Assembly (NCBI GenBank): GCA_951230915.1
Contig: OX579640.1
Coordinates: forward strand, 16,140,981 to 16,204,980
Source of the DNA: Antitrichia curtipendula
Taxonomy: Eukaryota; Streptophyta; Bryopsida; Hypnales; Leucodontaceae
DNA: 64,000 nt
Direction: 5' to 3'
Shown: in pieces, positions 5,093 through 61,653 of the stretch
Layout of the letters: the number at the start of each line of letters is the position of its first letter
How positions within the stretch are numbered: position 1 is the first letter of the stretch
Program-made: the position numbers and the translations under genes
The notes under the pieces: generated by a model
Database searches by the model: none
The model's input: only the letters and a program-made list of their open reading frames with translations
What the model was told of the DNA's origin: nothing

Positions 5093-5162
5093 TCTGCTCT
5101 CATAAGCCCCTCTTGTCCTTACAATCTTCTGTCTGTGGAGGTCCACAGCAGAGCGCTACTGC

Positions 5163-5369: not shown

Positions 5370-6274
5370 AATGAAGTGCTGTAGATTGCAATTATTGCTG
5401 CAAATCCGCCGGAGTAGACAACGTGTGCTAGGCCCAATCTTCTCTTGAATTTCTAGTCGAGTTCAAGTATCTTGCCCCAAATGATTGCCATCTCTAGAAT
5501 CAATGAGTGTTCACGTACCTCACTGAACCCAAGCACATCAATCACAACGCTAAAGTCCTCATGCATTGCAGTTTTTGCGACTATCGTGAAATTTTGCAGC
5601 TGTCCTTGCCCTCTGCCATACAGATCTCTGTAGTTGTAGTCATTCCCCAGTCGGAATTCTTCGGAAATGACAGTTTTCCCTCAAAAAGAGTCATTTACTA
5701 GTCAATACAACTATGAAATGACTTCTTTGTAACTCTCGTGAGTGACCTAGAAGTCCGTCATCTATATCGGACTAGTGAATGCGGTTCCAAAAAGCGCGCC
5801 TTCAGTCTTTGCTATGTGAGAACTGAAAAGGTGAAACTAATGAATAATTCCTTGCGGAAAAGTATGGTTTGCATAGGACCTGTGTATTTCTGCGTACTGC
5901 ATTGAACTTTAAAGGGAATTGAAGACGTCACAGCTTTGAGGCCCTCCATTCCATTTTTTTGGTGGGCTCACATCTCCGAGGAAATGTGCAGCAGTCATAC
6001 CTGGGCCTAAAACGCTTATAGAACACCAATGTTAAGTCCTATTTGTTTTGGAAAGGCTCGTCCATTATACACAGTCACGCTTTCCTGTGCGTGGATTCAA
6101 ATTCATGGTTACAGGTTTGTCAGCATTTAGGTTTGTCACTGAATTTTGTAGAAGAACATCCATGTGAAAGTGCATGTTCACCACAAACCCAGAAGCTCCA
6201 TTGTTGTGGGCTTTGAGGAGCAGGGCGATGTGGAAGATGAATTATATATATAGTTATATAGTTATATACTGAAA

Positions 6275-6614
6275 CGCTTTGAGCAGAAAATGCATATGGA
6301 AACAATTTGCAATGTACGGAATGACATTCCTTTTGGAGGGGCGCTTTGAGAACGAAGCGCATGTGCAACAGTGCAGCCCATGCATAAGGGAGTTCATGGC
6401 ATTCCCTTTTTTTTTTTCGCACTTTGATGTCAAAGCGCGTGTGCACACAATGTACAAGGTAATTCATTGCATTTCCTTTTTTTTTTTGCGTTTTGACCTC
6501 AAAGCGCGTGTGCCTTCCATGTACAAGGTAATTCATTGCATTTCCTTTTTTTTTTTGCGCTTTGACCTCAAAGCGCGTGTGCACACCATCTGCAAGGTAG
6601 TTCATGGCATTCCC
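6275..6614 (-). repeat. Tandem repeat, about 69-bp units, copy L
   Basis: Mirror of 41942-42281: five head-to-tail units of about 69 bp, the two furthest from tnp2 being degenerate. Each intact unit has an A-run of about ten and a GCGCTTTGA-type inverted repeat. It lies between the divergent tnp2 and ORF1 genes. Confidence 0.85.
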
Positions 6615-7091
6615 TTCTTGGTTTAACACTTTGTCAGGGTATTGGAATTGCAGTTGTACACCATGTACAAGTACTGCGGCCTCCTTGCTTTGGGACACTT
6701 CTTGTACTGTTTTTCTCTTGGACTGCTGTTCAATGTGTCCCTCTTCTCCTTCCTGATTTGCTGTGAAAGTGCAGGAATGCAATGTAGTTGTTAGATTCAT
6801 ATTCAGGGAACATCCAGAATGCACACTTGTGCAATATGTCATCGTTGTCTTCTACGTAAGACCACCCCAAGTAGTTTGCGACAGAGAAGTTGTGAAGAAT
6901 GACTGGAAGTTCAAAATGACTGAGAAATGACTATTTCTAAGTAATGAGAAGTTGCAAAAAATGACTACGTCCGTCATTCCAATGAACTCTTTTACCCTTA
7001 TGAAGTGCCAAACGTCGCTGAGATTTGAGAATTCAGTTGCAGGATTTTGGCTTGTAAAATAAGCGTAAGTGTATAGGATTCTTAAATTTCA

Positions 7092-7636
7092 TTACATTTT
7101 TGTTGTGCCATCCACGTTTTCTTCCAAGAACATGTTTATGCGGCGTTTGGTTTTTCTTGGGTGCACATGAGAACTACTTTCTACTAAAACAGACTTTGGT
7201 GAGGAGAGAAGTGAATAGATGTCATTGCAGAGCAGGTCTGATCTCATGTGTCCATCTACGTAAACAAGGTTGAATTCATAAATGTTTAGTGTTTTGGAAA
7301 GTGAGGCCACTTTATACATTTCCCCACTGTTTGCCATCTGAAGTTGGAGTTTCCTGACATTGACCTCCATGGCCGTGGCATGTGTAGGTCTTGCGGAAGC
7401 AAATCCAATGCATTCGCAAATCAGGTACAAGTAGTTAGAGGAGGAGTCCTACAAGGTGCCGTTGATTTTTTGTATGTGAAGGACAAATACTGAAGTACTT
7501 CTCTTCTGAATCTGTGGAGATTGACATTAAATTTGGCAATCATGCGCGTGCCTTGCGTCCATTGTGTGTACGATGAGGTGTAGGATGAGTTTGCCAGCCA
7601 CATGCCCACATTCCAGTCATTGATGTGTTGAGCCAT
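7092..7636 (-). other. Two short overlapping ORFs upstream of tnp2, copy L (112 and 71 codons)
   Basis: Mirror of 40920-41464. Two overlapping frames on the strand opposite tnp2, kept open in both copies. No recognised domain. The copies are so similar that the conserved frame is not evidence of function. They could be exons of a small gene or untranslated leader. Confidence 0.25.
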
Positions 7637-7819
7637 TGGACATTGCAGTGACTTGCTTTCACAGAAGTCATTTTAAAGTCAAGAGACAATGACAGGAGAC
7701 GTTTATCAGTCGCGGACTGCTTTCAATCAGTGACATTATAGTAGGGACTACGTCACGGGACCACAAAATTTCTAATATAGCGGATTCCTACGCCCAAAGA
7801 AGTCTGTTCTTACAAAGAC

Positions 7820-10800
7820 ATGATACCAACTAGACTCCCTCTCTCTGACAATCAAAGGCAGCGTCTTCGAGATGATCGCCTGTGGATTAGAGAGTTGCAA
7901 AGGGCCACACAATTAAATGTTCAGAAATTGCATTGCCCTTGCAACCACTGTCGGGGGCGAAAGAAGCTGTTCTTACGGAATGTGAAGGAGCACCTCATCC
8001 GCCACGGGAGGCACCAAGACTGCAGGATGTGGAGAGGTCCGGGTGAAAAAGACTCCTCCGACGAAGAGTGGGAGCAGCAATTTTGGGGGCCGAATGTAGA
8101 GGAACCACATGAAGTGGATGCCGCAGTGGATACTCGTGGAATGGTTGACCAAGCGCTACGCCCAAATGAATTTTCTACATATTCAGATGAGAGGCTTGGC
8201 GAGGAAGTGCGAGATGCTTTTGCTACAGCAGATAGTATCCATGAACAGTTCATGGAAGTGGGCGATGCTGACGGTGCACAGGAGTTTGAATGTCGAGATG
8301 AGCAGCATCCCACCGACATGGGCACACGCGAAAGCAATGGAGATCCCAATTTTGATGCGAGGGTGTTGAAGGAGTCCTTGGAGCATTTGTACAATGGGGC
8401 TCGTTCAAGCAAACTTGCTGCTACGGTATTATTGATGAACTTGTGCACCGTGCACGGTGTTAGCAACCAATGTGCAAACAAACTATTCAGCATATTGCAT
8501 TCCCATCTGTTGCCCGAGAACAACACTTTGCCAAGAACCCACCATGCGGCAAAGTCCCTTACCGCAAAGTTGGGTTTGACGTATAACACCATCCATGCAT
8601 GTGAGCACGGTTGTGTGCTTTTTCGTGGACCCCATGCAAATGCCCTACACTGTCCTAAGTGTGGTGGTCGTAGATACAGAGATGAAGAGAGGCGTTGCTT
8701 TCCGGTGAAGGTGCTTCGCCATTTCCCCATCATTCCACGGCTGCAGCGGATGTTCATGAGTCCAAGTATCTCAAAATTGATGGTGTGGCATGCAGAGAAC
8801 CGGAGCAACAAAGAGGGAGGGGATGGACTTGTGAGACATCCGTGCGACTCCAAAGCATGGCAACATTTTGAGGACAATGTGGATCCTTCATTTGCAAGTG
8901 ATCCACGAAATGCTCACTTTGCCTTGGCAGCAGATGGAGTAAATCCTTTCAAGCAGAATCGGTCCTCTTGGTCAACGTGGCCCGTTGTATTGTTGAATTA
9001 CAACTTACCCCCATGGTTGAGTACAAAGAAGTTTTTCATTATGTTGGCTCTCTTGATTCCCGGGAGGGAATCCGTCACAAGCGATGTATTTGACGTGTAT
9101 TTAGAGCCTCTTGTGGAGGAGTTGTTGGAGCTGTGGAATGGGGTTCCAGCATATGATGTATCTAAAGATAGTGGGAGTAGGTCTTTTCAGTTGCGGGCCA
9201 TGTTGTTGTGGACTATCCACGGCTTTCCCGGCTATGGCACCGTAGGAGGTTTTTCCCATCAAGGGTATGTAGCATGTCCATGGTGTGGCGAGGATTTAGG
9301 GGCTGAGCATTCTACAGAGTTGGGTAAGCAAACTTATGGAGGGACTCGTCCTTGGCTCCCTGATGATCATCCCTTCCGGTCCCCAGAAATGAAAGACCAT
9401 TTCAACGGCTTCATGGAAAACCGCCCCAGACCACGCGAAGTGTCAATAGAGGAGCAAATACGGCATGCACTGCAGTGCGAGGCGTGGAAAGCAGCTGGAA
9501 ATAGAGACGGTGCTGCAGGTGACCCCTCCAAAATCTACGGCTTGAAACGCCTAAGCAATCTTTATCGCTTGCCGTATTGGAAGGTGAGTGTCGTCTTCCC
9601 TGGATATAGTTGTGTAAAATGACTTTCTTAAGACTTGACGGTGACCCCCAGTCACCTTGAAGTCATTGTGAAGTAATAATGTAGACAAAGATGACAAAAG
9701 TCATTAAAAATGACTTTTAAGTGACTATTATATGACACGTTGAAGAGAAGTGATTTACTAATGTCACTTCTCATTTTCTGTATTGACAGTATCTTCTCAT
9801 TCGTTATACGCTGGACGTCATGCACTGCGAACTTAACCTAGCTAAGAACTTCATGAAAACTATAACAGGCAAGAAGGACACAGTAAAAGTCAGAAGAGAC
9901 TTGCAAAGGCGGAACATTAGGCAACATTTGTGGCTAACTCCACATCCACGGAAGCCAGGGAAGATGGTCAAGCCTCGCGCATCCTGTGTGTTGACGGATG
10001 AAGAGTTTGAGAAGTTTGCCAAGTGCATTGAGTCCCTTAAAACGCCCAGTGGATATTCCTCGGACCTTGGCAAGTCCATTCGCAAGAAAAACTTTGGGGG
10101 ACTGAAATCCCATGATTACCATGTTCTAATGCAACAGGTGATGCCTCTAGCTCTCCGTGGGCTGATGCAACTTGGACCTCGTATGGCTGTGATGAGAATG
10201 TGCAAGGTATTTCGTCGCCTATGCACAAAGGTGTACAATCCGGCAGACTTTCCTTCACTTGAAGCAGATCTGGCAGAAAGCATGGCCTTGATGGAGATTG
10301 AATTCCCGCCATCTTTTTTTGACGTAATGACGCATCTTCCCTACCATCTTGCAAAGGAACTTGACTTGTGTGGACCGGTTAGCGCAAGGTGGATGTACCC
10401 GGTGGAACGCTACATGAAAGTGTTGAAAAATTATGTTCGAAACATGGCGCGACCGGAGGCTTGTATGGCAGAGGGATACTTGAGAGATGAGTGCATTGGA
10501 TTCATTACAGAGTACCTCCATGGATTTGAGGCCACTCAGAGACGGGTCTGGGATGAAGATGAAGAGTACAGTGATGCCGAGGAGGTTTTGCAAGGGGCGG
10601 GGCGGTCATATGTTATGAGTGTTGAGCTCAGAGACGTAGCCCACCAATATGTGCTTTCCAATTCATCCACTATGCAGGACCTATATACGTAAGTTCACTG
10701 CCAAAATTTTGTGCGTGTGAACCCTGACCTGCAAAATTTGGCAGTAGTCAGAACGCCTCACTCTCTAACCTGCACATCAATAGTGACTGCTTTCTAGTAG

Positions 10801-11735
10801 AGCAGAAGTTGTCATGAAGTCATTTTTGAGTCATGTCGATGGCGACTGATTGAAGAATGACTCAGAGGTTATGAGGTGAAGTGACCAAGCAGTCACGCAG
10901 TTCATTTTTTTTCAGAAGGTTTTGAGGGCTTTGACTATGGTAACGGTATGATGTCCAGAATTTGCCTCGCGTGCTTCTCATCTGAGTATGTCAATTGCGT
11001 TTGTAGGAAGTGGAAGGCGGAATCGGAAGCCAATTCGAGTACTCCTACATTAGTAGATTGGATTCAGAGAACTGTGGCGAACTCGGAGTTGGATTTGACG
11101 AACCCGGGGCACATGGACCTGTTTTGTTAAGCAAGAAGCCGGCACAAAGAGCCACTCGCTACGCACGCATGACTGCTTTCGGTAATCACTTTTGAGTGGA
11201 AGACGAGAGTAGTAGGCACTTGGTGAGCTACAATAGTGGTGTGGCTTCCGTTTTCCAGGAGCCAACGGATGGAGCTGAAGAATTGTCAGTGAACTATGTG
11301 GGAGTCTTGAAGGACGTGTTGGAGCTAGACTACGGTGCTGTCAATACAAGAATCATTCTATTGCGCTGCGAGTGGGCAAAAAGGCAAGATAATCGAGGTA
11401 ATGCAACATATATTCGGGATGAGTCCGGGTTCCTTGTGGTGAACTTCCGGCACACATTGCCGCGCTTGGCAGAGCCATTCATTTTTCCAAGCCAGGCAAC
11501 CCAAGTATTCTTCTCGGATGTCACCGAGAGACTTGGTTGGAAAGTGGTGTTACACAAAGAAGCCAGAGCAAGACGAGAAGTTGTTGACCCAATGGACGCG
11601 TTTATTAGCACTACACTAGAGAGCACAGGCCTAAGAGCTCCTCAAAGGTTGCCAATTCGAGCGCAGACGGCAAATGTAGTCGGAGCCATAGAATTGTCAG
11701 AGGAAGAGAACTTACTAGCTCGGGAGGGCTACTGA
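7820..11735 (+). pseudogene. TNP2: tnp2-type CACTA transposase gene, interrupted (copy L)
   Basis: Transposase expected to bind and cut the element ends in the nucleus. Exon 1 (7820-9583, 588 codons) has an N-terminal CPCNHC / HLIRHGRH region typical of tnp2 proteins (residues 39-64), a second Cys pair region CPKC (278-281), the TNP2 core with ADGVNPF (371-377, likely first catalytic Asp) and CPWCGE (486-491). Exon 2 starts at 9790 (intron 9584-9789) and carries the DUF4218-like block with GLKSHDYHVLMQ and RWMYPVERYMKVLK, ending near 10688 at a GT-AAG donor. The C-terminal part (about 10970-11735) has the DUF4216-like region with NSGV and QATQVFF. It is broken: one frame ends at TAA 11128-11130 and homology continues in another frame from about 11100, then a TGA stop stands at 11193-11195 between NHF and VED. 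The exon 2 to exon 3 junction is unclear. The same lesions occur in copy R. Confidence 0.85.
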
Positions 11736-12787
11736 CATGCAATATTGCAATTACTTAGCACATGCACCCGCGAAGTGTGCTGGCACTTTGAATAAGAAGA
11801 TCTGACGCATTTGTGGCAAGTCAGGCTATATGTAAATAGGAACTAGGTGGATGCAGACTCAGCTAAACCTTCAAATTATGTTGCATTTGTGGATTGTTGA
11901 AATCAGGATCCCCTACCCCCGGTCTAACGCAGTCATTGCACGGTTCCATTGAAGTCACCACGTAGTCTCACGCACTCAGTGTACAGTGCCATTGCAATCA
12001 CCACGTAGTCACTTTGTTTATATGTACGAAACAGCAGCATTGAACACACTTCACACGTCAGCTCTTCCCTTCACATGCACAAGTACTTTACACTTGAAGT
12101 CGGTGACATCTTGCAGATGTAGAGAACTATATCCCAAAAGGAAGCATAGGTGGTCCAATACTCCTATGTACTTGGATTTTTTGGGGGGTCTCACTCATGG
12201 GTGGTATTACTGGTATGTAGCCCAATTCCTGAAGGTTCATACCAATATGCCTACGAATTAAATATTGAACGCGGTCTCATTGTCTCAGAAGTTATATGCG
12301 AGTGATGGTGGAGTCAATTCATGGTGGCCCCGTAGTGAAACCAGTCGCAAAATCACCTTGGTTTGTGACTCGTCTATGACTATGTCGCAGAGCGCACTCA
12401 CAGCCCAGTAGCGTCGGAATGTCTGTCCTGCCCGTCAGTTGCCTGCCTTGCCCGTTTTTTTCCCTCACTTTCAAATTCCGGCGTCTTCATGGCTTCTTAG
12501 TGATTTCCTAGTTGCAAACTAGTCACATGAAGTCGCATTTCATGACTGGAACGTAATCATTCATGATTGGGGAGTCCACGTTGGATTTTGCACCTCCCCC
12601 TATACTACTGTGGACGATAAGGTGAACAGAAAAGTGTAGACGCACCTCGCCATCCGTCATGTCTTCATCCAACAGTCGCACTAGTAACTGTGAAACGACT
12701 GGAACTCTGGAAATCCCGCTGGGCTGGTGCAATTACAGAGGTCGCAGTCATTTTGTAGTGAAACCGGACAAACAGTCATTCTTCCCT
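11736..12787. other. Subterminal non-coding region of CACTA copy L
   Basis: No convincing gene. It holds scattered AGTCATT/AATGACT motifs and GTGACTACGTGG-like repeats such as those near 11950-12010, as expected for transposase-binding subterminal DNA of CACTA elements. Binding is inferred, not shown. Confidence 0.5.
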
Positions 12788-12817
12788 AGTCATTTATACC
12801 CCCAATTTTTTGTAGTG
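12788..12817 (-). repeat. CACTA terminal inverted repeat, inner end of copy L
   Basis: Reading outward-in on the reverse strand it begins CACTACAAAAAATTGGGGG and ends AAATGACT; 30 bp, identical to 35739-35768. The adjacent host bases 12818-12820 are TCA. Confidence 0.95.
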
Positions 12818-35738: not shown

Positions 35739-35768
35739 CACTACAAAAAATTGGGGGTATAAATGACT
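35739..35768 (+). repeat. CACTA terminal inverted repeat, left end of copy R
   Basis: Begins CACTACAAAAAATTGGGGG and ends AAATGACT. Pairs with 50800-50829 (29 of 30 bases) and is identical to the end of copy L at 12788-12817. Confidence 0.96.
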
Positions 35769-36820
35769 AGGGAAGAATGACTGTTTGTCCGGTTTCACTA
35801 CAAAATGACTGCGACCTCTGTAATTGCACCAGCCCAGCGGGATTTCCAGAGTTCCAGTCGTTTCACAGTTACTAGTGCGACTGTTGGATGAAGACATGAC
35901 GGATGGCGAGGTGCGTCTACACTTTTCTGTTCACCTTATCGTCCACAGTAGTATAGGGGGAGGTGCAAAATCCAACGTGGACTCCCCAATCATGAATGAT
36001 TACGTTCCAGTCATGAAATGCGACTTCATGTGACTAGTTTGCAACTAGGAAATCACTAAGAAGCCATGAAGACGCCGGAATTTGAAAGTGAGGGAAAAAA
36101 ACGGGCAAGGCAGGCAACTGACGGGCAGGACAGACATTCCGACGCTACTGGGCTGTGAGTGCGCTCTGCGACATAGTCATAGACGAGTCACAAACCAAGG
36201 TGATTTTGCGACTGGTTTCACTACGGGGCCACCATGAATTGACTCCACCATCACTCGCATATAACTTCTGAGACAATGAGACCGCGTTCAATATTTAATT
36301 CGTAGGCATATTGGTATGAACCTTCAGGAATTGGGCTACATACCAGTAATACCACCCATGAGTGAGACCCCCCAAAAAATCCAAGTACATAGGAGTATTG
36401 GACCACCTATGCTTCCTTTTGGGATATAGTTCTCTACATCTGCAAGATGTCACCGACTTCAAGTGTAAAGTACTTGTGCATGTGAAGGGAAGAGCTGACG
36501 TGTGAAGTGTGTTCAATGCTGCTGTTTCGTACATATAAACAAAGTGACTACGTGGTGATTGCAATGGCACTGTACACTGAGTGCGTGAGACTACGTGGTG
36601 ACTTCAATGGAACCGTGCAATGACTGCGTTAGACCGGGGGTAGGGGATCCTGATTTCAACAATCCACAAATGCAACATAATTTGAAGGTTTAGCTGAGTC
36701 TGCATCCACCTAGTTCCTATTTACATATAGCCTGACTTGCCACAAATGCGTCAGATCTTCTTATTCAAAGTGCCAGCACACTTCGCGGGTGCATGTGCTA
36801 AGTAATTGCAATATTGCATG
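35769..36820. other. Subterminal non-coding region, left end of copy R
   Basis: Mirror of 11736-12787. Contains AATGACTG near 35775 and 35804 and GTGACTACGTGG-type repeats at about 36543-36605. No gene seen. Confidence 0.5.
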
Positions 36821-39800
36821 TCAGTAGCCCTCCCGAGCTAGTAAGTTCTCTTCCTCTGACAATTCTATGGCTCCGACTACATTTGCCGTCTGCGCTCGAA
36901 TTGGCAACCTTTGAGGAGCTCTTAGGCCTGTGCTCTCTAGTGTAGTGCTAATAAACGCGTCCATTGGGTCAACAACTTCTCGTCTTGCTCTGGCTTCTTT
37001 GTGTAACACCACTTTCCAACCAAGTCTCTCGGTGACATCCGAGAAGAATACTTGGGTTGCCTGGCTTGGAAAAATGAATGGCTCTGCCAAGCGCGGCAAT
37101 GTGTGCCGGAAGTTCACCACAAGGAACCCGGACTCATCCCGAATATATGTTGCATTACCTCGATTATCTTGCCTTTTTGCCCACTCGCAGCGCAATAGAA
37201 TGATTCTTGTATTGACAGCACCGTAGTCTAGCTCCAACACGTCCTTCAAGACTCCCACATAGTTCACTGACAATTCTTCAGCTCCATCCGTTGGCTCCTG
37301 GAAAACGGAAGCCACACCACTATTGTAGCTCACCAAGTGCCTACTACTCTCGTCTTCCACTCAAAAGTGATTACCGAAAGCAGTCATGCGTGCGTAGCGA
37401 GTGGCTCTTTGTGCCGGCTTCTTGCTTAACAAAACAGGTCCATGTGCCCCGGGTTCGTCAAATCCAACTCCGAGTTCGCCACAGTTCTCTGAATCCAATC
37501 TACTAATGTAGGAGTACTCGAATTGGCTTCCGATTCCGCCTTCCACTTCCTACAAACGCAATTGACATACTCAGATGAGAAGCACGCGAGGCAAATTCTG
37601 GACATCATACCGTTACCATAGTCAAAGCCCTCAAAACCTTCTGAAAAAAAATGAACTGCGTGACTGCTTGGTCACTTCACCTCATAACCTCTGAGTCATT
37701 CTTCAATCAGTCGCCATCGACATGACTCAAAAATGACTTCATGACAACTTCTGCTCTACTAGAAAGCAGTCACTATTGATGTGCAGGTTAGAGAGTGAGG
37801 CGTTCTGACTACTGCCAAATTTTGCAGGTCAGGGTTCACACGCACAAAATTTTGGCAGTGAACTTACGTATATAGGTCCTGCATAGTGGATGAATTGGAA
37901 AGCACATATTGGTGGGCTACGTCTCTGAGCTCAACACTCATAACATATGACCGCCCCGCCCCTTGCAAAACCTCCTCGGCATCACTGTACTCTTCATCTT
38001 CATCCCAGACCCGTCTCTGAGTGGCCTCAAATCCATGGAGGTACTCTGTAATGAATCCAATGCACTCATCTCTCAAGTATCCCTCTGCCATACAAGCCTC
38101 CGGTCGCGCCATGTTTCGAACATAATTTTTCAACACTTTCATGTAGCGTTCCACCGGGTACATCCACCTTGCGCTAACCGGTCCACACAAGTCAAGTTCC
38201 TTTGCAAGATGGTAGGGAAGATGCGTCATTACGTCAAAAAAAGATGGCGGGAATTCAATCTCCATCAAGGCCATGCTTTCTGCCAGATCTGCTTCAAGTG
38301 AAGGAAAGTCTGCCGGATTGTACACCTTTGTGCATAGGCGACGAAATACCTTGCACATTCTCATCACAGCCATACGAGGTCCAAGTTGCATCAGCCCACG
38401 GAGAGCTAGAGGCATCACCTGTTGCATTAGAACATGGTAATCATGGGATTTCAGTCCCCCAAAGTTTTTCTTGCGAATGGACTTGCCAAGGTCCGAGGAA
38501 TATCCACTGGGCGTTTTAAGGGACTCAATGCACTTGGCAAACTTCTCAAACTCTTCATCCGTCAACACACAGGATGCGCGAGGCTTGACCATCTTCCCTG
38601 GCTTCCGTGGATGTGGAGTTAGCCACAAATGTTGCCTAATGTTCCGCCTTTGCAAGTCTCTTCTGACTTTTACTGTGTCCTTCTTGCCTGTTATAGTTTT
38701 CATGAAGTTCTTAGCTAGGTTAAGTTCGCAGTGCATGACGTCCAGCGTATAACGAATGAGAAGATACTGTCAATACAGAAAATGAGAAGTGACATTAGTA
38801 AATCACTTCTCTTCAACGTGTCATATAATAGTCACTTAAAAGTCATTTTTAATGACTTTTGTCATCTTTGTCTACATTATTACTTCACAATGACTTCAAG
38901 GTGACTGGGGGTCACCGTCAAGTCTTAAGAAAGTCATTTTACACAACTATATCCAGGGAAGACGACACTCACCTTCCAATACGGCAAGCGATAAAGATTG
39001 CTTAGGCGTTTCAAGCCGTAGATTTTGGAGGGGTCACCTGCAGCACCGTCTCTATTTCCAGCTGCTTTCCACGCCTCGCACTGCAGTGCATGCCGTATTT
39101 GCTCCTCTATTGACACTTCGCGTGGTCTGGGGCGGTTTTCCATGAAGCCGTTGAAATGGTCTTTCATTTCTGGGGACCGGAAGGGATGATCATCAGGGAG
39201 CCAAGGACGAGTCCCTCCATAAGTTTGCTTACCCAACTCTGTAGAATGCTCAGCCCCTAAATCCTCGCCACACCATGGACATGCTACATACCCTTGATGG
39301 GAAAAACCTCCTACGGTGCCATAGCCGGGAAAGCCGTGGATAGTCCACAACAACATGGCCCGCAACTGAAAAGACCTACTCCCACTATCTTTAGATACAT
39401 CATATGCTGGAACCCCATTCCACAGCTCCAACAACTCCTCCACAAGAGGCTCTAAATACACGTCAAATACATCGCTTGTGACGGATTCCCTCCCGGGAAT
39501 CAAGAGAGCCAACATAATGAAAAACTTCTTTGTACTCAACCATGGGGGTAAGTTGTAATTCAACAATACAACGGGCCACGTTGACCAAGAGGACCGATTC
39601 TGCTTGAAAGGATTTACTCCATCTGCTGCCAAGGCAAAGTGAGCATTTCGTGGATCACTTGCAAATGAAGGATCCACATTGTCCTCAAAATGTTGCCATG
39701 CTTTGGAGTCGCACGGATGTCTCACAAGTCCATCCCCTCCCTCTTTGTTGCTCCGGTTCTCTGCATGCCACACCATCAATTTTGAGATACTTGGACTCAT

Positions 39801-40736
39801 GAACATCCGCTGCAGCCGTGGAATGATGGGGAAATGGCGAAGCACCTTCACCGGAAAGCAACGCCTCTCTTCATCTCTGTATCTACGACCACCACACTTA
39901 GGACAGTGTAGGGCATTTGCATGGGGTCCACGAAAAAGCACACAACCGTGCTCACATGCATGGATGGTGTTATACGTCAAACCCAACTTTGCGGTAAGGG
40001 ACTTTGCCGCATGGTGGGTTCTTGGCAAAGTGTTGTTCTCGGGCAACAGATGGGAATGCAATATGCTGAATAGTTTGTTTGCACATTGGTTGCTAACACC
40101 GTGCACGGTGCACAAGTTCATCAATAATACCGTAGCAGCAAGTTTGCTTGAACGAGCCCCATTGTACAAATGCTCCAAGGACTCCTTCAACACCCTCGCA
40201 TCAAAATTGGGATCTCCATTGCTTTCGCGTGTGCCCATGTCGGTGGGATGCTGCTCATCTCGACATTCAAACTCCTGTGCACCGTCAGCATCGCCCACTT
40301 CCATGAACTGTTCATGGATACTATCTGCTGTAGCAAAAGCATCTCGCACTTCCTCGCCAAGCCTCTCATCTGAATATGTAGAAAATTCATTTGGGCGTAG
40401 CGCTTGGTCAACCATTCCACGAGTATCCACTGCGGCATCCACTTCATGTGGTTCCTCTACATTCGGCCCCCAAAATTGCTGCTCCCACTCTTCGTCGGAG
40501 GAGTCTTTTTCACCCGGACCTCTCCACATCCTGCAGTCTTGGTGCCTCCCGTGGCGGATGAGGTGCTCCTTCACATTCCGTAAGAACAGCTTCTTTCGCC
40601 CCCGACAGTGGTTGCAAGGGCAATGCAATTTCTGAACATTTAATTGTGTGGCCCTTTGCAACTCTCTAATCCACAGGCGATCATCTCGAAGACGCTGCCT
40701 TTGATTGTCAGAGAGAGGGAGTCTAGTTGGTATCAT
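36821..40736 (-). pseudogene. TNP2: tnp2-type CACTA transposase gene, interrupted (copy R)
   Basis: Mirror of 7820-11735 with the same translated frames. Exon 1 is 40736-38973 and exon 2 is 38766-37868; the C-terminal part ends at 36821. The TNP2 core, DUF4218-like block and DUF4216-like region are all present. The TGA between the NHF and VED residues is at 37363-37361, and the frame change near 37430-37460 is also shared. A typical tnp2 has Phe-Arg at the stop position, so CGA to TGA (a C to T change at a CpG) would explain it. Because both copies share the lesions, they were probably moved by a transposase supplied from another element, or were copied by a route other than their own transposition. 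Confidence 0.85.
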
Positions 40737-40919
40737 GTCTTTGTAAGAACAGACTTCTTTGGGCGTAGGAATCCGCTATATTAGAAATTTTGTGGTCCCG
40801 TGACGTAGTCCCTACTATAATGTCACTGATTGAAAGCAGTCCGCGACTGATAAACGTCTCCTGTCATTGTCTCTTGACTTTAAAATGACTTCTGTGAAAG
40901 CAAGTCACTGCAATGTCCA

Positions 40920-41464
40920 ATGGCTCAACACATCAATGACTGGAATGTGGGCATGTGGCTGGCAAACTCATCCTACACCTCATCGTACACACAATGGACG
41001 CAAGGCACGCGCATGATTGCCAAATTTAATGTCAATCTCCACAGATTCAGAAGAGAAGTACTTCAGTATTTGTCCTTCACATACAAAAAATCAACGGCAC
41101 CTTGTAGGACTCCTCCTCTAACTACTTGTACCTGATTTGCGAATGCATTGGATTTGCTTCCGCAAGACCTACACATGCCACGGCCATGGAGGTCAATGTC
41201 AGGAAACTCCAACTTCAGATGGCAAACAGTGGGGAAATGTATAAAGTGGCCTCACTTTCCAAAACACTAAACATTTATGAATTCAACCTTGTTTACGTAG
41301 ATGGACACATGAGATCAGACCTGCTCTGCAATGACATCTATTCACTTCTCTCCTCACCAAAGTCTGTTTTAGTAGAAAGTAGTTCTCATGTGCACCCAAG
41401 AAAAACCAAACGCCGCATAAACATGTTCTTGGAAGAAAACGTGGATGGCACAACAAAAATGTAA
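40920..41464 (+). other. Two short overlapping ORFs upstream of tnp2, copy R (71 and 112 codons)
   Basis: ORFs 40920-41135 and 41126-41464 lie divergent from tnp2, starting 184 bp from its ATG. No domain recognised; the second is ordinary in composition with several Ser and Lys. They might be exons of a small extra gene or leader of a + strand transcript. Confidence 0.25.
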
Positions 41465-41941
41465 TGAAATTTAAGAATCCTATACACTTACGCTTATTTT
41501 ACAAGCCAAAATCCTGCAACTGAATTCTCAAATCTCAGCGACGTTTGGCACTTCATAAGGGTAAAAGAGTTCATTGGAATGACGGACGTAGTCATTTTTT
41601 GCAACTTCTCATTACTTAGAAATAGTCATTTCTCAGTCATTTTGAACTTCCAGTCATTCTTCACAACTTCTCTGTCGCAAACTACTTGGGGTGGTCTTAC
41701 GTAGAAGACAACGATGACATATTGCACAAGTGTGCATTCTGGATGTTCCCTGAATATGAATCTAACAACTACATTGCATTCCTGCACTTTCACAGCAAAT
41801 CAGGAAGGAGAAGAGGGACACATTGAACAGCAGTCCAAGAGAAAAACAGTACAAGAAGTGTCCCAAAGCAAGGAGGCCGCAGTACTTGTACATGGTGTAC
41901 AACTGCAATTCCAATACCCTGACAAAGTGTTAAACCAAGAA

Positions 41942-42281
41942 GGGAATGCCATGAACTACCTTGCAGATGGTGTGCACACGCGCTTTGAGGTCAAAGCGCA
42001 AAAAAAAAAAGGAAATGCAATGAATTACCTTGTACATGGAAGGCACACGCGCTTTGAGGTCAAAACGCAAAAAAAAAAAGGAAATGCAATGAATTACCTT
42101 GTACATTGTGTGCACACGCGCTTTGACATCAAAGTGCGAAAAAAAAAAAGGGAATGCCATGAACTCCCTTATGCATGGGCTGCACTGTTGCACATGCGCT
42201 TCGTTCTCAAAGCGCCCCTCCAAAAGGAATGTCATTCCGTACATTGCAAATTGTTTCCATATGCATTTTCTGCTCAAAGCG
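41942..42281 (+). repeat. Tandem repeat, about 69-bp units, copy R
   Basis: Unit starts are at 41942, 42011, 42080 and 42150 (69, 69 and 70 bp), with a degenerate fifth unit to 42281. Intact units read GGAAATGCAATGAATTACC, then a palindromic GCGCTTTGAGGTCAAAGCGC (41980-41999 in unit 1) and an A-run of about ten. An ORF of 240 codons (41714-42436) runs through the block because 69 is a multiple of 3; it looks like a by-product. A TATA-rich microsatellite follows at about 42289-42315. Confidence 0.9.
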
Positions 42282-43186
42282 TTTCAGTATATAACTATAT
42301 AACTATATATATAATTCATCTTCCACATCGCCCTGCTCCTCAAAGCCCACAACAATGGAGCTTCTGGGTTTGTGGTGAACATGCACTTTCACATGGATGT
42401 TCTTCTACAAAATTCAGTGACAAACCTAAATGCTGACAAACCTGTAACCATGAATTTGAATCCACGCACAGGAAAGCGTGACTGTGTATAATGGACGAGC
42501 CTTTCCAAAACAAATAGGACTTAACATTGGTGTTCTATAAGCGTTTTAGGCCCAGGTATGACTGCTGCACATTTCCTCGGAGATGTGAGCCCACCAAAAA
42601 AATGGAATGGAGGGCCTCAAAGCTGTGACGTCTTCAATTCCCTTTAAAGTTCAATGCAGTACGCAGAAATACACAGGTCCTATGCAAACCATACTTTTCC
42701 GCAAGGAATTATTCATTAGTTTCACCTTTTCAGTTCTCACATAGCAAAGACTGAAGGCGCGCTTTTTGGAACCGCATTCACTAGTCCGATATAGATGACG
42801 GACTTCTAGGTCACTCACGAGAGTTACAAAGAAGTCATTTCATAGTTGTATTGACTAGTAAATGACTCTTTTTGAGGGAAAACTGTCATTTCCGAAGAAT
42901 TCCGACTGGGGAATGACTACAACTACAGAGATCTGTATGGCAGAGGGCAAGGACAGCTGCAAAATTTCACGATAGTCGCAAAAACTGCAATGCATGAGGA
43001 CTTTAGCGTTGTGATTGATGTGCTTGGGTTCAGTGAGGTACGTGAACACTCATTGATTCTAGAGATGGCAATCATTTGGGGCAAGATACTTGAACTCGAC
43101 TAGAAATTCAAGAGAAGATTGGGCCTAGCACACGTTGTCTACTCCGGCGGATTTGCAGCAATAATTGCAATCTACAGCACTTCATT

Positions 43187-43393
43187 ATGAGCCGCCAACA
43201 TCCGCTCCCGCCGCCATCATGCCAACAAGGAAGTTTCCCTGGCCAAGTTCTTCATGTCACAGACCTGCTCCACTGGTTTGCAGAGGGCAGCGGACTAGAA
43301 CACTTCATCGGCGCTGCAAGGACTCGAGTTTCTGAAGTTCACGCCATTGCACGCAGCCTAGTTTCTTTGAACGACGGACACTATCCTCGGTAA
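43187..43393 (+). other. 68-codon ORF upstream of ORF1, copy R
   Basis: ATG-started frame ending at a CG|GTAAGC donor-like site. Joining it to the next exon is in frame, but the intron would be only 34 or 49 nt. It is either a leader exon with another splice pattern or noise. Differs from copy L by one residue (Ser for Gly). Confidence 0.25.
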
Positions 43394-43463
43394 GCAGTAG
43401 CGCTCTGCTGTGGACCTCCACAGACAGAAGATTGTAAGGACAAGAGGGGCTTATGAGAGCAGA

Positions 43464-46400
43464 ATGGAGGAAGCGATGGAGAGTCCACCCCCTCAGAAAT
43501 CTGCGTATGAGCTTGCCAGGGACCGGAACGTGGCGGAGGTGCAGAAGCGACTAGAGCCAGCTTTGGCGGCGCGGTCACTCCTGTGAGTTCCGGATTCTTG
43601 TACTTCTTGACGTGTTTGGCTGCAGTTCTCATGCCTTGCCACTGCTTTCAAAAACTCATGCATGCAGCTAAAACTTGAAAAATTCTGTGTGGAGGAGGTG
43701 CAACAGTTCTGTCGGTGTACTATGGTCCTCAAACCATGGCACACAGTTTTCCCGTTGTCTCCCTGCAAGGCTTGACCGTTATGAAAATGAATTAAGAAAG
43801 GCGCTTATCCCAAGGCGCAGAGGCGGCGCTTGCCTAGGGTTTTAGTGCACAAACATCCATATCCCATGTCGCCTCTGCTTTCTGGAGACGTTCTTTAGTT
43901 ACAAAGAAGTCATAGTGAATGACTGAAATCTGTAGAGCGACTTCTTTCAAGTCAGTAGTTAGTCACACAGAAGTCAAATATTAGTGGCGTTCAAGTGGCG
44001 GATCATGAACTTCTTGTAATCACCACACGCCACGTCAGATGCCTGTGTAAGACCACCACTCTCTATGTAGCAAACCCTAGTTTTCGGCTTTCTCTGTGCT
44101 TGGGGTCCGCCATTGCCATTTTCACTTTCTGTCAAGGCTTTTGTACCAAAGTTGCACGCGGTCCGCCTTCTTCATCTTTTCTCAGGGCTTTGATTGAGGT
44201 CTTGCGTGTGTTGTGGCGGCGCAGAGACAAGAAAATAGCAGAGGAGAAGCAGTCAAAGTCCTCCGATCCCGCGAAGAAGGTCTCCGGTCCGCTGCGTCGG
44301 AGTTCCCGATGGCGGGGCCTTCGAGGACACATTGCAAGGCAGAGGCGAGGTGAAAAAGACTGCCAAGACAAACAAGGAGTGAAGCGTGACATGTCAAGCG
44401 CACGCGATTCGTCGTCGGAGGCGACCAAGTCCGATGACGAGGCCATCGCCACAGGTATGATGAATCTCGCAATTGCTTGTTCTCATGTTGCGCGGCAATC
44501 CACGTTGGGGGCACCTCCCGCAAGTAAATTAGCATGACGCTCCCTTCACCTTCAAATTAGGATATAGGGTTCCACGCTGTGGACATGAATTCCCTTTCAT
44601 AGTTACATTTCAGTGTGTGATCTCAAGCATAACGTGCCTCAATTACAGAAAACAGACATCTACCAGCTCAATCCCTCTGTGGTTGCAATGTTGGGTGTGC
44701 AGATTTGGAGATTCGTCTGTTTGATTCTTCTGATGAGGACGTGTCCCTGGAAAATGAAGAAAGACTAGTAGACCGGCGGACCAAGCGTAAGAGGACAAGT
44801 GCAGCGGAGGCATTTCCATCGAAGGTTGCAGCACCAACGTCGGTGCATCCTCCTCCAGAAGCTGTTGCATACGGGCAACACTCATACCATTGGATCCCAG
44901 GCCACTACATTCCCAGTCAATCTCAAGCACCAATGCCGTGTTCCACGTGCCCTGCACCACCGTTATCAAATGCGTGGCCGGTGCATGCTTCCGTCCCATT
45001 TGGGATATCAAGTACTTCCGCATCCGGTGCTTTAGGTTGTCCAGACATTGAGGAGAGATTCTCAAGGCGAAAGAGAAAGAACGAGTATGATCTAGCTAGT
45101 CGCCAACGAGCCACATCAGGTGTGAAGCCGAACCGTGTGTATGTGATGGAGGGCGGGGAGGTGGACGCTAGTTGCGAAGGAAAGAATGCCTGGGACGAAG
45201 CGCTCCGGGATTTGGTTCCCAAATGCCTTGACATGAGTGTGGTCTCCTGGAAGAAGCACCCACAGCATACGCTTGTAAAATTGAGAGCTTCCTTGGACAA
45301 CGAATTCGAGTACCTCGGGAATCCGTTGAGCATGGTTGGTTTTCGAACGGCAGTGACGAGATTTTTGAAGTCCGAGAGATGTCGTTTGAAGTCCCGTTAT
45401 TTGAAAGGCATTGACACTCCTCCTCTTCACGTTGACAAACCAGAGTGGGATCGTCTGAAAGACTACTGGAATACTGATGCGCAGAAAGTGAAGGCACAGA
45501 GCATGGCCAAGGCACGTAAGAACGTGAAGAATTTTGCTCTAGTAGGCCGTAGAGGGAAGGTAGGGAAGGAAGCTGGGTCGGTAAGTCCTCATTTCCACAG
45601 TCTTCGGTTCTGCCCATATTAGTTTGTTTTTGGCTGATTGTACAGAGCAAGAAGCCACATGTTTGGTATAATTAGCAAGTTCCTTTGTGTACCTGATGTT
45701 TGCATGCTAAATTGTAACAGAGGGAGGCAGGGGAAACAAGTGCAGGAATTACGGACCTTGCGGAGGCCAGGCGTGCAAGTGCGAGTCATGAGCTGTCAGG
45801 AAATGTAAGTTCCCTTGAGAAGCCGGTTCCTTTTGTCCGTAGCTGTCTAGTTCTGTTAAACGTATTTAGAATAGGGGCAGAAGCAATATGCGAGCCCTGT
45901 TAGTACTTAATTTTGTTGGTTTCATTAGATGGGTTCAGGCTTGTATTTTGTATTTCTGTAGTGTGCCTATGACGTCCACAGGTATTGCATTTTGACTATG
46001 ATACCGGAAGGGAGGTCAATAAGGGCGGTTCTACGCCAGGAAATGCATCTTTGGTCATTTGGTGCACTGATAGGGACTGTCTTTGAATTACTGGAACTGT
46101 CGCCGTGTTCTTAGTCACAAGAGCTGGGCCACTGCACACTCCTGCTGTGTTGTAATTACACTCCCGCTCCACCAAATTCTAGTCGTACTGAAGTGCCATT
46201 TCAGCTGCTCCCAGTCGAAACACAGTTGTGCTGCAGTTGAGATTCAGTCACTGTGTAGTCAAGTTTTAGTTGCGGTTCAGTAGAACTGTAGTTGCGATTC
46301 AGTCAAACTTTAGTTACTCTTTGGTCCAATGGCAGTGTCTTTTCTTTCACACTTTGGTAGAACGTGCATGTGCCTTGCAGCATGACTATTTGTACTGTGG

Positions 46401-49400
46401 CAAGCCCAGAATTCCACGCTTTCTTTACAAACGTGCATGTGGTATTGTCGCGTTTTGTGACCCGACTACATGAATGTATTCCTCCTTGAGGCCAACATTG
46501 CATGTCTCGTGACAAACTCCGGTCCATGCTGTATTGTAGTGGTTTCTAGGGATTAGACAGCCGTGACAATGCATTGGGTAAGTTTGAACGTGTGGCACCT
46601 TCATGTTAGACATATGCATATGTGGAGGACATCCGCTTTATCCTCATGTACGACTCCAGTATGTAGCCAATGGCTTGTTAGTCATACATGAATTGTAGGA
46701 GTGCGTGGGAGTGAACTTTCGGGACTCGTTTCTGAACTTCAAATCGACTGAGGTGATTTTGTTCCATGTTTGTTTGTGATTAGAAGGCGGGAGCAGGTGA
46801 CAACCCTCACTGGGAATTGATGCAATCGTGGAAGACGGATGTGGACCACAAGATGGGACATTTCCTGGCCAACTCCGCTGCCCAAGCCGCGGCAATTGAC
46901 GACTTGCGTTCAATGTTCCAGAGCTTCATGGGAAAGTCGAAGCCACGTGATGAAGGCAGCCCCTCCATCGGTCAATCAGTGTTGGAGAACCGCGAATCAC
47001 GAGACTTGCCACAAGCAGAAGGCACCTGTTTCATGGGAAACTCTAAGAAGAAAGTCCCAACAGCGACGGAGAAAGACAATCCTTCCACAAAGGATAGGCG
47101 GGGGCCCGGCGCTCCTTCCACAAAGGAGAAGCAAGGTCCTGGGCATGCAAGCCAACAAAAAGGTGAAGCCCAGGTGCAGGTAAACCCCAAGGAGTTGACT
47201 TCGTTGTCTTCTGAGTCTGACCTTGTTCCCCTTGAGATTGCAGACCCCGTTTCAGCGCCGATAACAAAGGAGTGGAAAGTGTCTGAGCGAAATGTACCCA
47301 AAAACGGGACAAACCCTGTAAAAGAGACCTTGCAGGAGGTGGGAGTGTCATCGCAGCCTAATGCGTTTCCAAAGTCAAGTAAGGAGGTGGTGGACCTCCA
47401 AAAAGCCATTCAGGTTGAAGCAATTGTCACCCCTAATCATGAAATCGAGGAGCCCTCAAAAAACATTGTGGCACTGGATCCCTCAACGGTAGCCGACACA
47501 GAGCCGGCATGTGACGATACTATGGAGGCTGAAGTTCCTGGAGAAGAAGATCGCCCGGCCACGAGAAGTAGTGGTGGTCCCTCACCGGTAAGTAGTGATG
47601 GCGAAGGCAGCCCCGACGAGAAGGAAGGCAACCCCGACAAGAAGAAGGAAGATGGAGTGGCTGAAGTGTCTTTGGCAAAGAAGTCTTCAGCGTCACAGCA
47701 GGTTGTGGATGTGGTGCCGGAGACGTCGAAGTCGTTGGAGGTTGCACCAGCCGCACTGGAGCCGGCTCAGAAGAAGTCCAGAAAACCACCGAAGACACCA
47801 GTGAAGGTACTTTCCCCGCCCGGCGTTCATCAACGTACGTCGAGTGAGGTGAGACCTCATGATTCTGGTGCTCCTTGGGTCTTCACCGCATTACGTGAAC
47901 GTGGTCAACCCATATTAGTTATTTTCAATGTGCATGGCACATTGTTGGACTCCAGTGTGTTGTGGAAGCCAAACCCCAATCCTCGAATTCGTAGTACCAC
48001 TAAAACTGAGTTCAGGAGAGTAGTCTTCCGTCCTTGGTTGAAAACATTCCTTAATCGATGCTTCAGTAGCTTTGAAGTTGCATTCTGGGGCAGCGACAAC
48101 GGAGAACAAATGAAGGACGTGTTGCCTGCAATGCTTGGGGGGGTAAAGGGTGTTACGCACGCCCCACTGTTTGCGTGGTCAAGCAAACATGGTGTGCGAG
48201 ACCATGTTGCAGATGGCAGCACAACTGATTGGAGTAAACAGTTAGAGTTAGTTTTTGCAACTTGGCCTCATTTCTGTGCAACTAATATAGTGATTGTAGA
48301 TAGTAAGAAGAGTAGGGTTGAGTGCAACCCGGACGCTAACGTCATCCTCAGCACGCCTTTCTATGTGAAGTGGATGTGCGCCTTGGCAAATGACAAGGAG
48401 TACCTGAAACGGTACCTGTGGCCGCTGTTGGAGGCTTTACTCGAATGCTCCGATGTTCCTACCTTTCGATCCAAATTCCCCAATATTGTCAACGAATCCA
48501 TGTCACAAATGCTGCAAAGACGCCGAAGCGGACATGCATATGAGTTTCTGGACATTGTTGAAGGTGAGGGGACACGCATAGCATGGGATTGCACACGCCC
48601 TAGCGTCCCCTCACCTTCCCTTCATCTTTATATCTAATAATTGACCCGTGTGTGTAGGTCAAGCTCCAGACGCGGGAGACGAGGGCAACCGCAGCGTCAG
48701 CGTTGGAAAAGAAAGGTGTCGCACCCTCCACGAAGAAGGTGCGTTCAGTTGAGAATGATGTGACAGTTTCGCCTTACGTGCAATAGAAAGTCATTGTCTA
48801 GTGATGGTTAAGTGATCACACAGAAAAAGACTGGTGTAGCACAGTTGCATTCAATGATTTACATGTTGTGGTGTAGTCGTTAAGAAGTCAGGTTCATCTT
48901 GGAGTCTACATTTGAAATCGGTGCGTCTGAAGTTGTCGTCATAGCTTGCAAGGGTGGGCTTATGCATTGGACGTTTCCATTCTAGTAATGTAGGGACTGA
49001 AATGAATATATTCCACAACGAGGACTTGTTCAATCGACAGTCAGCTTTTGCTAGAAGTTACTAGTCATTCTCAACGAATAAACCATTGAGAGCATTCTGA
49101 AGTTTATTATGGGAAGGGGCTTCTCTATTGACGTTAGCCTTCCATAGCGTTGTTGGATCTGCACGTGAAAGTTTGTCTTGTACGATGTAATGTACGAGGT
49201 CCTTGTAGTGCTTGTGTGCTAACAATTTAGTGCAGCCATAGTTTTGTACATGAATTGGGGCACAGCTGTAGACATAGTCACGAGGAAGTGAAGAATTAGT
49301 GGCGAAGTGCATTGAAGTCATTCACTAGTGAAAGGCCTGTCACCAGTTAGTCATATGCAGGTGATGGAAAAGTGGATAGGATGCCTATTTTCTGTTGAAT

Positions 49401-49723
49401 ACGTTTAGGACATTTTGGTTTTAAGAATTGAAGCTAATGTTAGCCCTTACCTGCAGTATCGGCTTGGAGACGAAGTTCTTCTCTTCAACCCGCGGTCAAG
49501 AAGGCAGGAAGTGGCGGTGGAGAGGATTAGCGGTATCCCAGGCAAACAGAAGTTCCATTTCCAAGAGATTCCGGAGACTTGGTTTAAGATAGACATCAAG
49601 GAAGTTTTGCAGCCAGGGGGGGCGCTGATGTTCCCCCATGAAGCGGATGAGCAAACGCAGCTGAAAGATGTGGAGGGGACTAGCACAATATGGGATCAGA
49701 AGTACCTGAAAGTTAAGGTTTGA
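43464..49723 (+). CDS. CACTA ORF1/TNPA-type protein with FCP1/NIF-like HAD pseudophosphatase domain (copy R)
   Basis: Likely the accessory DNA-binding protein of the transposon, with an added domain. Predicted exons are 43464-43582, 44186-44454, 44703-45580, 45721-45804, 46784-48563, 48658-48738 and 49409-49723; phases match through exon 5. Exon 1 encodes SAYELARDRNVAEVQ. Exon 3 ends with PEWDRLKDYW and a basic tail, resembling the plant En/Spm Transposase_24 family. Exon 5 has a long Lys/Glu/Pro/Ser-rich linker, then at about residues 815-1025 a region like FCP1/NIF HAD phosphatases: ILVIFNVHGTLLD, AFWGSDN, NIVIVDS, NPDANVI. The catalytic DxD is replaced by Asn832 and His834, and the later DD pair is Asp-Ser (956-957), so activity is unlikely. 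Exon 7 (YRLGDEVLLFNP to the stop) resembles the C-terminal domain of other CACTA ORF1 proteins. The phase from exon 5 to exons 6 and 7 does not fit with the obvious donor, so the 3' model is uncertain. Confidence 0.72.
45805..46783 (+). other. Large intron of ORF1, copy R
   Basis: 979 bp between GT at 45805 and AG at 46783. No coding signal. Contains repeated TTGCGATTCAGT / TTGCGGTTCAGT-type motifs at about 46230-46320. Confidence 0.4.
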
Positions 49724-50799
49724 GGTGGCCACCGGGAGAGTTAGCAAGTACTTTGCCCAACGGACTTATGGCATTGGGGGACAACTCCATGGAAACAATA
49801 GTATTGTAAATATTCATGCTGAGCTGCAGTGATGGCTTATCCTATCTCAAGAGCCACTTTCATTTTCCGTTGTCTGTTCTCTAATTGTGTGAAGTTGGGA
49901 ATCCATTTTGCCATGGCCTAGAAGGAATTAGGTTGGATGACATTGAGGAGCATGTTAGTGCAATTGAAGAGTGTGTAGTTGTGCTGCAAGAGAGTGTACT
50001 TCATGTAGGCTGGTAATCTCATGTGAAATCATAAGTGCTCCTTCCTCAGTGGATGTACAACTGGCGCTCGCGGCACGTCCTTACGTGGTGACTGAATTTG
50101 TAGTCATGTCTTAGATACGCCGTAGTGATAGATCTGGATTGTCGGCCTATATTCGTGTAACTCAGAACTATTACTCAACACAGACCCCTCTGTCTGGAGA
50201 GTCCACGGCCACTGCTCACTGTAGAAGTTATACTTGTCAACTTTGGTGTAACTGGACAATAAATTGGATAGAACTTCAAAATGACATGTGGCTTCAAAAT
50301 TGGGTCTGACATCAGCACTTGCCAACTACACTGTAACTTATAAATAACTAAGAAATGACTGAATTCAGTCACCATGTCCGACCCAACAATGACTGCGTCG
50401 CATGTATTGGACGGACCTGCCATGTGTTTTTCCTCGAGAACTCCACCCGAACTGAATGACGACTGCAAAATGACTTTGAATTTTGCTGACATGGCCGTCC
50501 ACGTCAACTATTCTTGGACTGAATCTCAACTGCCAAATGACTCCGGAATTTGTGACGTGGACGGCCATGTCAGCAAAAATTAAAAGGATTTTTGAAGCTG
50601 CCCGACCTTTCCATGAAATTTTCTCTTCTTTCCATGTTCTGTAAAGACCCCCTCATCCAATATTCATCCAAGTACGAAGTGGATGGTGATAATACACCAG
50701 CAGTCATTTAAAGAATGACTTGTCCACAATGACTGTAGAACCCGAAGTCGTTTTCCAGTCATTTATGTCCGGAATGACTATTTTCCTGTCATTTTTTGC
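49724..50799. other. Subterminal non-coding region, right end of copy R
   Basis: No gene. Dense in AATGACT and AGTCATT motifs, especially 50340-50480 and 50700-50800, as expected for transposase-binding repeats near a CACTA end. Includes a strong inverted repeat at 50479-50581. Confidence 0.6.
50479..50581. repeat. Subterminal inverted repeat (hairpin) in copy R
   Basis: Arms 50479-50506 and 50553-50581 are reverse complements over 28 bp with one extra T (core GACATGGCCGTCCACGTCA), separated by 46 bp. GC-rich compared with its surroundings. Confidence 0.9.
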
Positions 50800-50829
50800 A
50801 GTCATTTATACCCCCCATTTTTTGTAGTG
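50800..50829 (-). repeat. CACTA terminal inverted repeat, right end of copy R
   Basis: In reverse it begins CACTACAAAAAATGGGGGG and ends AAATGACT; one mismatch to the left end. The following host bases are TGA. Confidence 0.96.
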
Positions 50830-61553: not shown

Positions 61554-61653
61554 ATCTGTTTCTGCTGGTATGCAAATACTGGCATTAAATCTCCCGTTTA
61601 AAGTAGGGTCTGGCAGCATTTGTTGCTGATAGTCCTTGAAGCTTCCATGAGGA

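Follow-up and report, generated by a model that had tools for sequence, protein, structure and literature searches.

Why should a transposon keep a phosphatase-like domain that has lost the residues needed for catalysis? The question is raised by a 64,000-nucleotide stretch of the Antitrichia curtipendula genome (hereafter the window; positions 16140981-16204980 of its contig, C8, in an assembly of 400,189,583 bases and 303 contigs), which carries two copies of a CACTA (En/Spm) transposon. Beside the transposase gene, this element has a second gene, termed open reading frame 1 (ORF1), whose long exon encodes a HAD domain of the NIF/FCP1 type, as in C-terminal-domain (CTD) phosphatases. We consider it probable that ORF1 is a TnpA-like accessory gene in which a catalytically dead HAD domain has been retained as a binding part, and we hold, with some reserve, that the element probably uses the domain as a binding module.

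A NIF-type HAD domain without the catalytic residues of a phosphatase

The domain lies in a stop-to-stop frame of 617 amino acids (46784-48637, forward strand), a length to be compared with at most 259 amino acids in 200 first-order Markov simulations. Residues 378-558 of this frame match the Pfam family NIF (PF03031) with an E-value of 4.8e-10 and a score of 39.8 bits, where 21.8 would suffice, and the solved folds nearest to the structure model of the domain are those of SCP, CTDNEP1, UBLCP1, Tim50 and Fcp1, profile and fold both pointing to the NIF type. A first-pass annotation of the window had reported HAD motifs here, together with Asn and His at the two Asp positions of DxD and Asp-Ser in place of the DD pair. 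The motifs could be read as claimed (ILVIFNVHGT, AFWGS and IVDSK..NPDANVI), the structure prediction that it had suggested bore out the fold, and the substitutions were recovered in the alignments and genome loci described next.

In a profile alignment to UBLCP1 (3shq), Asn and His stand opposite the Asp pair of DxD (an aligned piece that on its own is worth no more than -0.3 bits), Gly stands opposite the Ser of motif II, the Lys is conserved, and D-[S/H] faces D-D, the second Asp being lost. These states were followed in alignment A1, which has 32 rows (the window and 31 public proteins), and in 36 of 39 sampled genome loci that passed a filter for length and absence of stops (L039, L040 and L041 were excluded). 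The first DxD position is N in 31 rows of A1 and T in one, and N in 34 loci and D in two; the second is H in 30 rows and Q in two, and H in 20 loci, Q in 15 and L in one. D-x-D is found in 0/32 rows and 0/36 loci, and the phosphatase signature DxDx(T/V) is replaced by N-x-H-G-T in the window. What has been kept is Thr33, present in all 32 rows, as well as K132 of motif III and D153, each present in 31/31 rows (P0031 is too short); in the genome, Thr and Lys are found in 36/36 loci and D153 in 32/36. The residue that follows D153 is H in 17, S in nine and N in five of the 31 rows, Asn belonging to one branch, and is never D in the 36 loci; FCP1/SCP phosphatases read DD or DN here and the window has Ser. 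When 236 columns are ranked by conservation, K132 comes 10th, D153 12th, N29 21st and H31 36th. The model of UBLCP1-type HAD-IIID proteins (TIGR02245) gave 18.9 bits, below its curated cut-off of 192.25. With the nucleophile Asp changed to Asn, the general acid/base Asp to His or Gln, the motif II Thr/Ser to Gly and the second Asp of DD gone, the domain is not predicted to carry out the aspartyl-phosphate chemistry of its relatives, but it may still bind. We conclude that the domain is very probably non-catalytic, and we do not class it as a phosphatase because the defining catalytic motif was looked for and is absent. Its fold, as predicted, appears to be retained, alongside the residue losses, the conservation and the constant place in the element that are observed directly.

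The HAD exon belongs to a complete CACTA element

The element that hosts the HAD exon is a CACTA (En/Spm) transposon, complete in the window as copy B (Table 1). Its terminal inverted repeats (TIRs) open with CACTACAAAAAAT, the start expected of CACTA elements, and it encodes a transposase of the tnp2 type, recognised by a strong Transposase_21 match; the accompanying Transpos_assoc match is marginal (27.8 bits against a cut-off of 27.7). ORF1 and the transposase gene are divergently transcribed. The heptamer AATGACT is concentrated at the 3' end; the element's first 500 bp hold three further copies, where 0.09 would be expected, and it was counted 20 times in the 14.1-kb element interior and eight times in 36 kb outside the elements, a distribution that corresponds to subterminal repeats. 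Direct repeats with a spacing of 69 bp (41923-42148 and 6408-6633) are located inside the element between the divergent genes.

Table 1. Coordinates of the element copies, genes and domains in the window.
Feature	Position	Strand	Remarks
Complete CACTA element (copy B)	35739..50829	+	15,091 bp; based on 30-bp TIRs, 29/30 matching; flanks CAT / TGA
5' TIR, CACTACAAAAAATTGGGGGTATAAATGACT	35739..35768	+	
3' TIR	50800..50829	-	1 mismatch
Transposase gene, DUF4216 exon	36824..37360	-	PF13952, E 1.6e-11
Transposase gene, DUF4218 exon	37867..38769	-	PF13960, E 2e-35
Transposase gene, Transposase_21 (tnp2) and Transpos_assoc	38937..40775	-	PF02992, E 1e-64; PF13963, E 3e-06
ORF1, first modelled coding exon (start ATG)	44391..44454	+	GT/AG joins, phase kept; P0048 has same start, junction contiguous
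ORF1, exon with conserved N-terminal domain, Transposase_24-like	44703..45580	+	29 homologues
ORF1, short exon of 28 codons	45721..45804	+	junctions contiguous in P0048
ORF1, long exon	46784..48563	+	coil-like stretch, charged variable linker, HAD; followed by 5' splice site GTGAGG (end read from sequence)
NIF/FCP1-type HAD domain	47915..48457	+	N-x-H replaces DxD, D-S replaces DD
3' subterminal region	50330..50829	.	AATGACT x10 (expected 0.13)
Second element copy (A), inverted	1..12817	-	cut by left window edge; its HAD at about 1-713

ORF1 probably links an N-terminal domain, a coil-like stretch and the HAD domain

The spliced model of ORF1 comprises 933 amino acids and maintains the frame across three GT-AG joins. 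A public protein, P0048 (source label lgn, which we take to be Logan), runs contiguously over all three modelled joins and is identical in 213/437 columns (E 4e-118). P0048 stops before the HAD domain, so the complete fusion is deduced from two halves that overlap, together with the constant order of the genes. An origin from one element would fit the records of P0032 (the best N-terminal relative) and P0003 (a HAD relative), each of which gives 45,926 bp as its longest contig. Beyond 48563 no acceptor could be picked for the 3' end of the gene; a 104-amino-acid frame (49409-49723), located 3' of the HAD exon within the element and without a Pfam match, is a possible last exon.

The first-pass annotation had described a CACTA ORF1-type protein in which a Transposase_24-like region, a charged linker and the HAD domain share one open exon, the latter starting near residue 815. 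The ORF1 assignment is upheld by the CACTA TIRs, the Transposase_21 gene, the Transposase_24 matches of alignment A2 and the order of the loci. The coil-like stretch, the linker and the HAD domain share a frame in one exon, and the N-terminal Transposase_24-like domain is located in a separate modelled exon. In the present splice model motif I begins at residue 719, not near 815. The resemblance to Transposase_24 (PF03004) is found in 8/20 members of A2 and is weak (best E 1.2e-4), whereas the window's own N-terminal exon gives no match at E ≤ 10.

The arrangement is repeated across the genome and the domain is constrained over the long term

The HAD query returned at least 151 matches in the genome, some of which are fragments of a single copy. 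The 617-amino-acid frame is present in eight of these matches (two of which are those of the window), at 94-100% identity; more distant sets lie at about 65%, 55% and 48% identity, with frames of up to 687 amino acids. Twenty ten-kb loci, covering HAD identities of 48-98%, were taken, and the coil-like stretch, linker and HAD domain are encoded on the same strand and in the same frame in all of them (15 stop-free, five with one stop). The N-terminal domain lies upstream of the HAD domain in 19/20 loci and the opposite-strand transposase further upstream in 19/20, L013 retaining only a 123-residue piece; L014 is without both. Seventeen near-identical matches (L039, an N-x-H copy whose match ends at query residue 98, and 16 others) are confined to query residues 10-98, and 15 lie in 415-amino-acid frames; either elements whose HAD domain is truncated have recently multiplied in a burst, or an intron is situated at this place. 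Pattern searches gave 77 matches in viral contigs and 10 in prokaryote genome contigs, none confirmed as a relative, in collections that may omit records of or near the window's genome.

Mean pairwise identity is 51% in the HAD domain versus 20.5% in the upstream part, the former being higher in 465/465 pairs (which are not independent), and gaps amount to 0.2% of the domain among P0001-P0030. In 575 deep pairs of genome copies the differences at the three successive codon positions of the HAD domain were 0.351, 0.273 and 0.578; the corresponding values were 0.335, 0.243 and 0.582 for the N-terminal domain (67 pairs) and 0.183, 0.094 and 0.505 for the transposase (80 pairs). The ratio of nonsynonymous to synonymous substitution rates (dN/dS) of the HAD domain was 0.19 in eight pairs at dS 0.1-0.3, the 575 deeper pairs being saturated. 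The domain is clearly under long-term purifying selection; the dN/dS check suggested for this locus thus supports constraint at depth, but not to the same degree among young pairs (see below).

Possible roles of the dead domain

ORF1 would occupy the TnpA position, that of the accessory gene in a multi-copy CACTA transposon. Its N-terminal part might, by analogy, bind the subterminal AATGACT repeats, the coil-like stretch may dimerise the protein, and the HAD part may bind a protein partner, which could be the transposase, ORF1 itself, a phosphoprotein or RNA polymerase II; such a contact would hold a transposition or expression complex together. That many related elements keep the dead domain suggests that it is probably a binding part and not an enzyme.

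More specifically, the domain might act as a phospho-reader: a CTD phosphatase in a natural substrate-trap form, which would attach to phosphorylated tails of RNA polymerase II and so couple the protein of the element to transcription. Recognition of phosphate would be in keeping with the Lys, Thr and Asp that remain, and for this reason we keep the idea, although as an unlikely one. Asn at the SCP1 nucleophile is reportedly the change used to trap that enzyme with a CTD peptide. The idea draws on the nearest folds listed above and on a review whose consulted section describes Asp96 and Asp98 of SCP1 as uninvolved in substrate binding (PMC7281111); the Thr/Ser of motif II is however replaced by Gly, and other partners exist for NIF folds. 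Less likely still is the full form of this idea, in which a CTD phosphatase has turned into a permanent substrate-trap reader, and ORF1 grips the element ends with one part and a phosphorylated host protein with its dead HAD part. Were this so, the RNA polymerase II tail would be the simplest partner, and excision, insertion or expression of the element would be tied to transcription; with the separately multiplied D-x-N families mentioned below, catalytically impaired NIF domains would then be a recurrent tool of selfish DNA.

The domain might instead be a passenger, a captured fragment of a host NIF gene with no role in the element. Captured gene fragments do occur in CACTA elements, as the sections consulted of one study report (PMC8978399), but the in-frame association with the coil-like stretch in 20/20 loci over 48-98% HAD identity, the higher conservation than that of the upstream part in every pair and the loss of D-x-D throughout make this explanation very improbable. 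No easier to credit is a rewired enzyme, in which N-x-H/Q and the conserved Lys, Thr and Asp catalyse a different reaction: the pocket columns rank high in conservation, yet the Asp pair is absent in every row examined, position 31 varies between H, Q and L, and position 154 between S, H, N, C, T and I. The least probable proposal is that the HAD domain belongs to a host gene or a separate transcript that merely adjoins the transposon, since the domain is enclosed by the TIRs of an element whose two copies disagree at 4 of 15,091 bp, and since it recurs in the genome with the opposite-strand transposase upstream in nearly all sampled loci.

Several observations weigh against the binding-part interpretation. 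The coil-like stretch was called by eye. P0048 diverges from the family after SPRWK and ends without a HAD domain, as would be seen if the contig stops there, if splicing differs or if a HAD-less form exists; none of the 31 HAD-side public proteins matches the N-terminal part of ORF1 by BLASTP at E ≤ 1e-3, and a search of public proteins with the 933-amino-acid model, in which scoring was limited to the 7,994 candidates with the most words in common, gave six matches, all of them known HAD-side proteins and none spanning both the N-terminal domain and the HAD domain; this speaks against regarding the full fusion as demonstrated. The structure model of the N-terminal domain (pLDDT, the predicted local distance difference test score, 64.8) has no match among PDB folds at E ≤ 0.001, so its DNA binding is argued from the TnpA analogy. 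In 45 pairs at dS 0.01-0.1 the median dN/dS of the HAD domain was 0.56 (range 0.19-2.09), which indicates weak recent constraint; the young-pair medians of the N-terminal domain and the transposase were 0.33 (11 pairs) and 0.35 (eight pairs), so that recent constraint on the HAD domain is below that on these two. Drift is expected in young transposon copies. The 39 other genome places sampled were all stop-free inside the HAD match and favour intact copies. Finally, the two loci with Asp at the nucleophile position read D-x-Q, and the divergent loci L040 and L041 read E-x-R, so the nucleophile site is not frozen. In midpoint-rooted trees, public proteins with the N-x-H state are found on each side of their deepest split, and the D-x-Q pair falls within a group of N rows in a tree whose basal forks are weakly supported; the loss is thus old and the D is probably secondary there.

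Relation to known CACTA elements and NIF proteins

The element resembles Tgmt*, En-1 and Tam1 in its CACTA TIRs, its Transposase_21, DUF4218 and DUF4216 domains, its subterminal repeats and a second gene with weak likeness to Transposase_24. It differs from Tgmt* in having ORF1 and the transposase as divergent genes in place of one large gene, and from known CACTA elements in that ORF1 ends in a NIF-type HAD domain. According to the portion consulted of the Tgmt* study, En-1 TNPA recognises subterminal repeats and is required together with TNPD for transposition (PMC2613891 for both comparisons). The Chenopodium Jozin elements likewise carry an extra conserved domain within their coding sequence; the gained domains are Peptidase_C48 or Transposase_24 there, and NIF here. 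The gain of such domains or of gene fragments by CACTA elements is thus already known, as the sections consulted of that study describe (PMC8978399), the main text of which does not contain the term NIF. Among the open-access papers that the literature searches returned, no title or abstract opening describes a CACTA protein with a NIF domain, and the NIF domain in a CACTA ORF1 appears to be what is new.

With the PF03031 phosphatases SCP1/SCP2, CTDNEP1, UBLCP1 and Fcp1, the ORF1 domain has in common its fold, the Thr that follows motif I, the Lys of motif III and the first Asp of DD; these enzymes keep DxD, the motif II Thr/Ser and the second Asp of DD, which the ORF1 domain has lost, and it is moreover transposon-encoded and accompanied by an N-terminal domain and a coil-like stretch. 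In Tim50 a NIF fold serves for binding, but this is a mitochondrial host protein of unrelated context. To our knowledge, little is known of the partners of CACTA TnpA-like proteins. A conserved, foldable, dead CTD-phosphatase module provides a handle for finding the host protein with which a CACTA element makes contact, and for asking if a pseudoenzyme is a means by which transposons exploit their host's machinery. There is a warning for annotation too, as many NIF matches of this genome are parts of transposons; one of the 31 public relatives, P0020, is named 'NLI interacting factor-like phosphatase' despite its lost DxD.

Two element copies flank an inverted or mis-oriented spacer

Copy A was completed with 2.5 kb from the left of the window (L009) and is also 15,091 bp in length. 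The two copies differ at 4 positions in 15,091 bp; a repeat finder reported an inverted duplication of 100% (rounded), and base-by-base comparison found 2 differences in 12,817 (43289 and 45201). The first-pass annotation had pointed out that both copies keep the frame open, and this is correct, but with so few differences they are one element seen twice and not independent evidence. Two nearly identical copies suggest recent movement. The 3-bp target-site flanks (35736-35738, 50830-50832, 12818-12820 and, left of the window, in L009) read TGA..CAT for copy A and CAT..TGA for copy B. Neither pair matches by itself, and both agree once one side is swapped between the copies; the CAT at the 3' flank of copy A was predicted from the window alone and then confirmed by reading L009. 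Such an exchange would result if recombination between the copies had turned the 22.9-kb spacer round, or if the assembly shows it in the wrong orientation. The spacer contains two frames with Transferase matches (PF02458, BAHD-type acyltransferase; 19717-21563, E 1.2e-20 and 5e-36) and a frame (24256-25110) that matches HTH_psq and, weakly, Tc5-type transposase DNA-binding domains, perhaps a pogo-like element. The BAHD-type gene and the kind of transposon would both suit a plant source.

Other NIF loci and neighbouring features

A genome search with PF03031 gave 862 first-look candidates, of which 150 were scored and 20 loci taken. Seventeen (L050-L064, L067 and L068) form two repeated families that read D-L-N for DxD and keep the DD/DN pair, X with VVLDLNGLLVHR and Y with WLNVVLDLNGILC; they stand apart from the CACTA family in a long-branched tree. 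The other three are a canonical locus (L049, DMDET) and two partial exons (L065 and L066). Long frames that precede an X copy and a Y copy (L069 and L070) carry a GGQHTVAA / NGQHSVTA motif, have no Pfam match at E ≤ 1 and none to the window's CACTA proteins, and perhaps represent another large mobile element. To the right of copy B, the window contains a hairpin of two 168-bp arms, 98% complementary and separated by 12 nucleotides (52971-53318), perhaps a small foldback element, and a tandem array of three 109-bp units (61245-61571).
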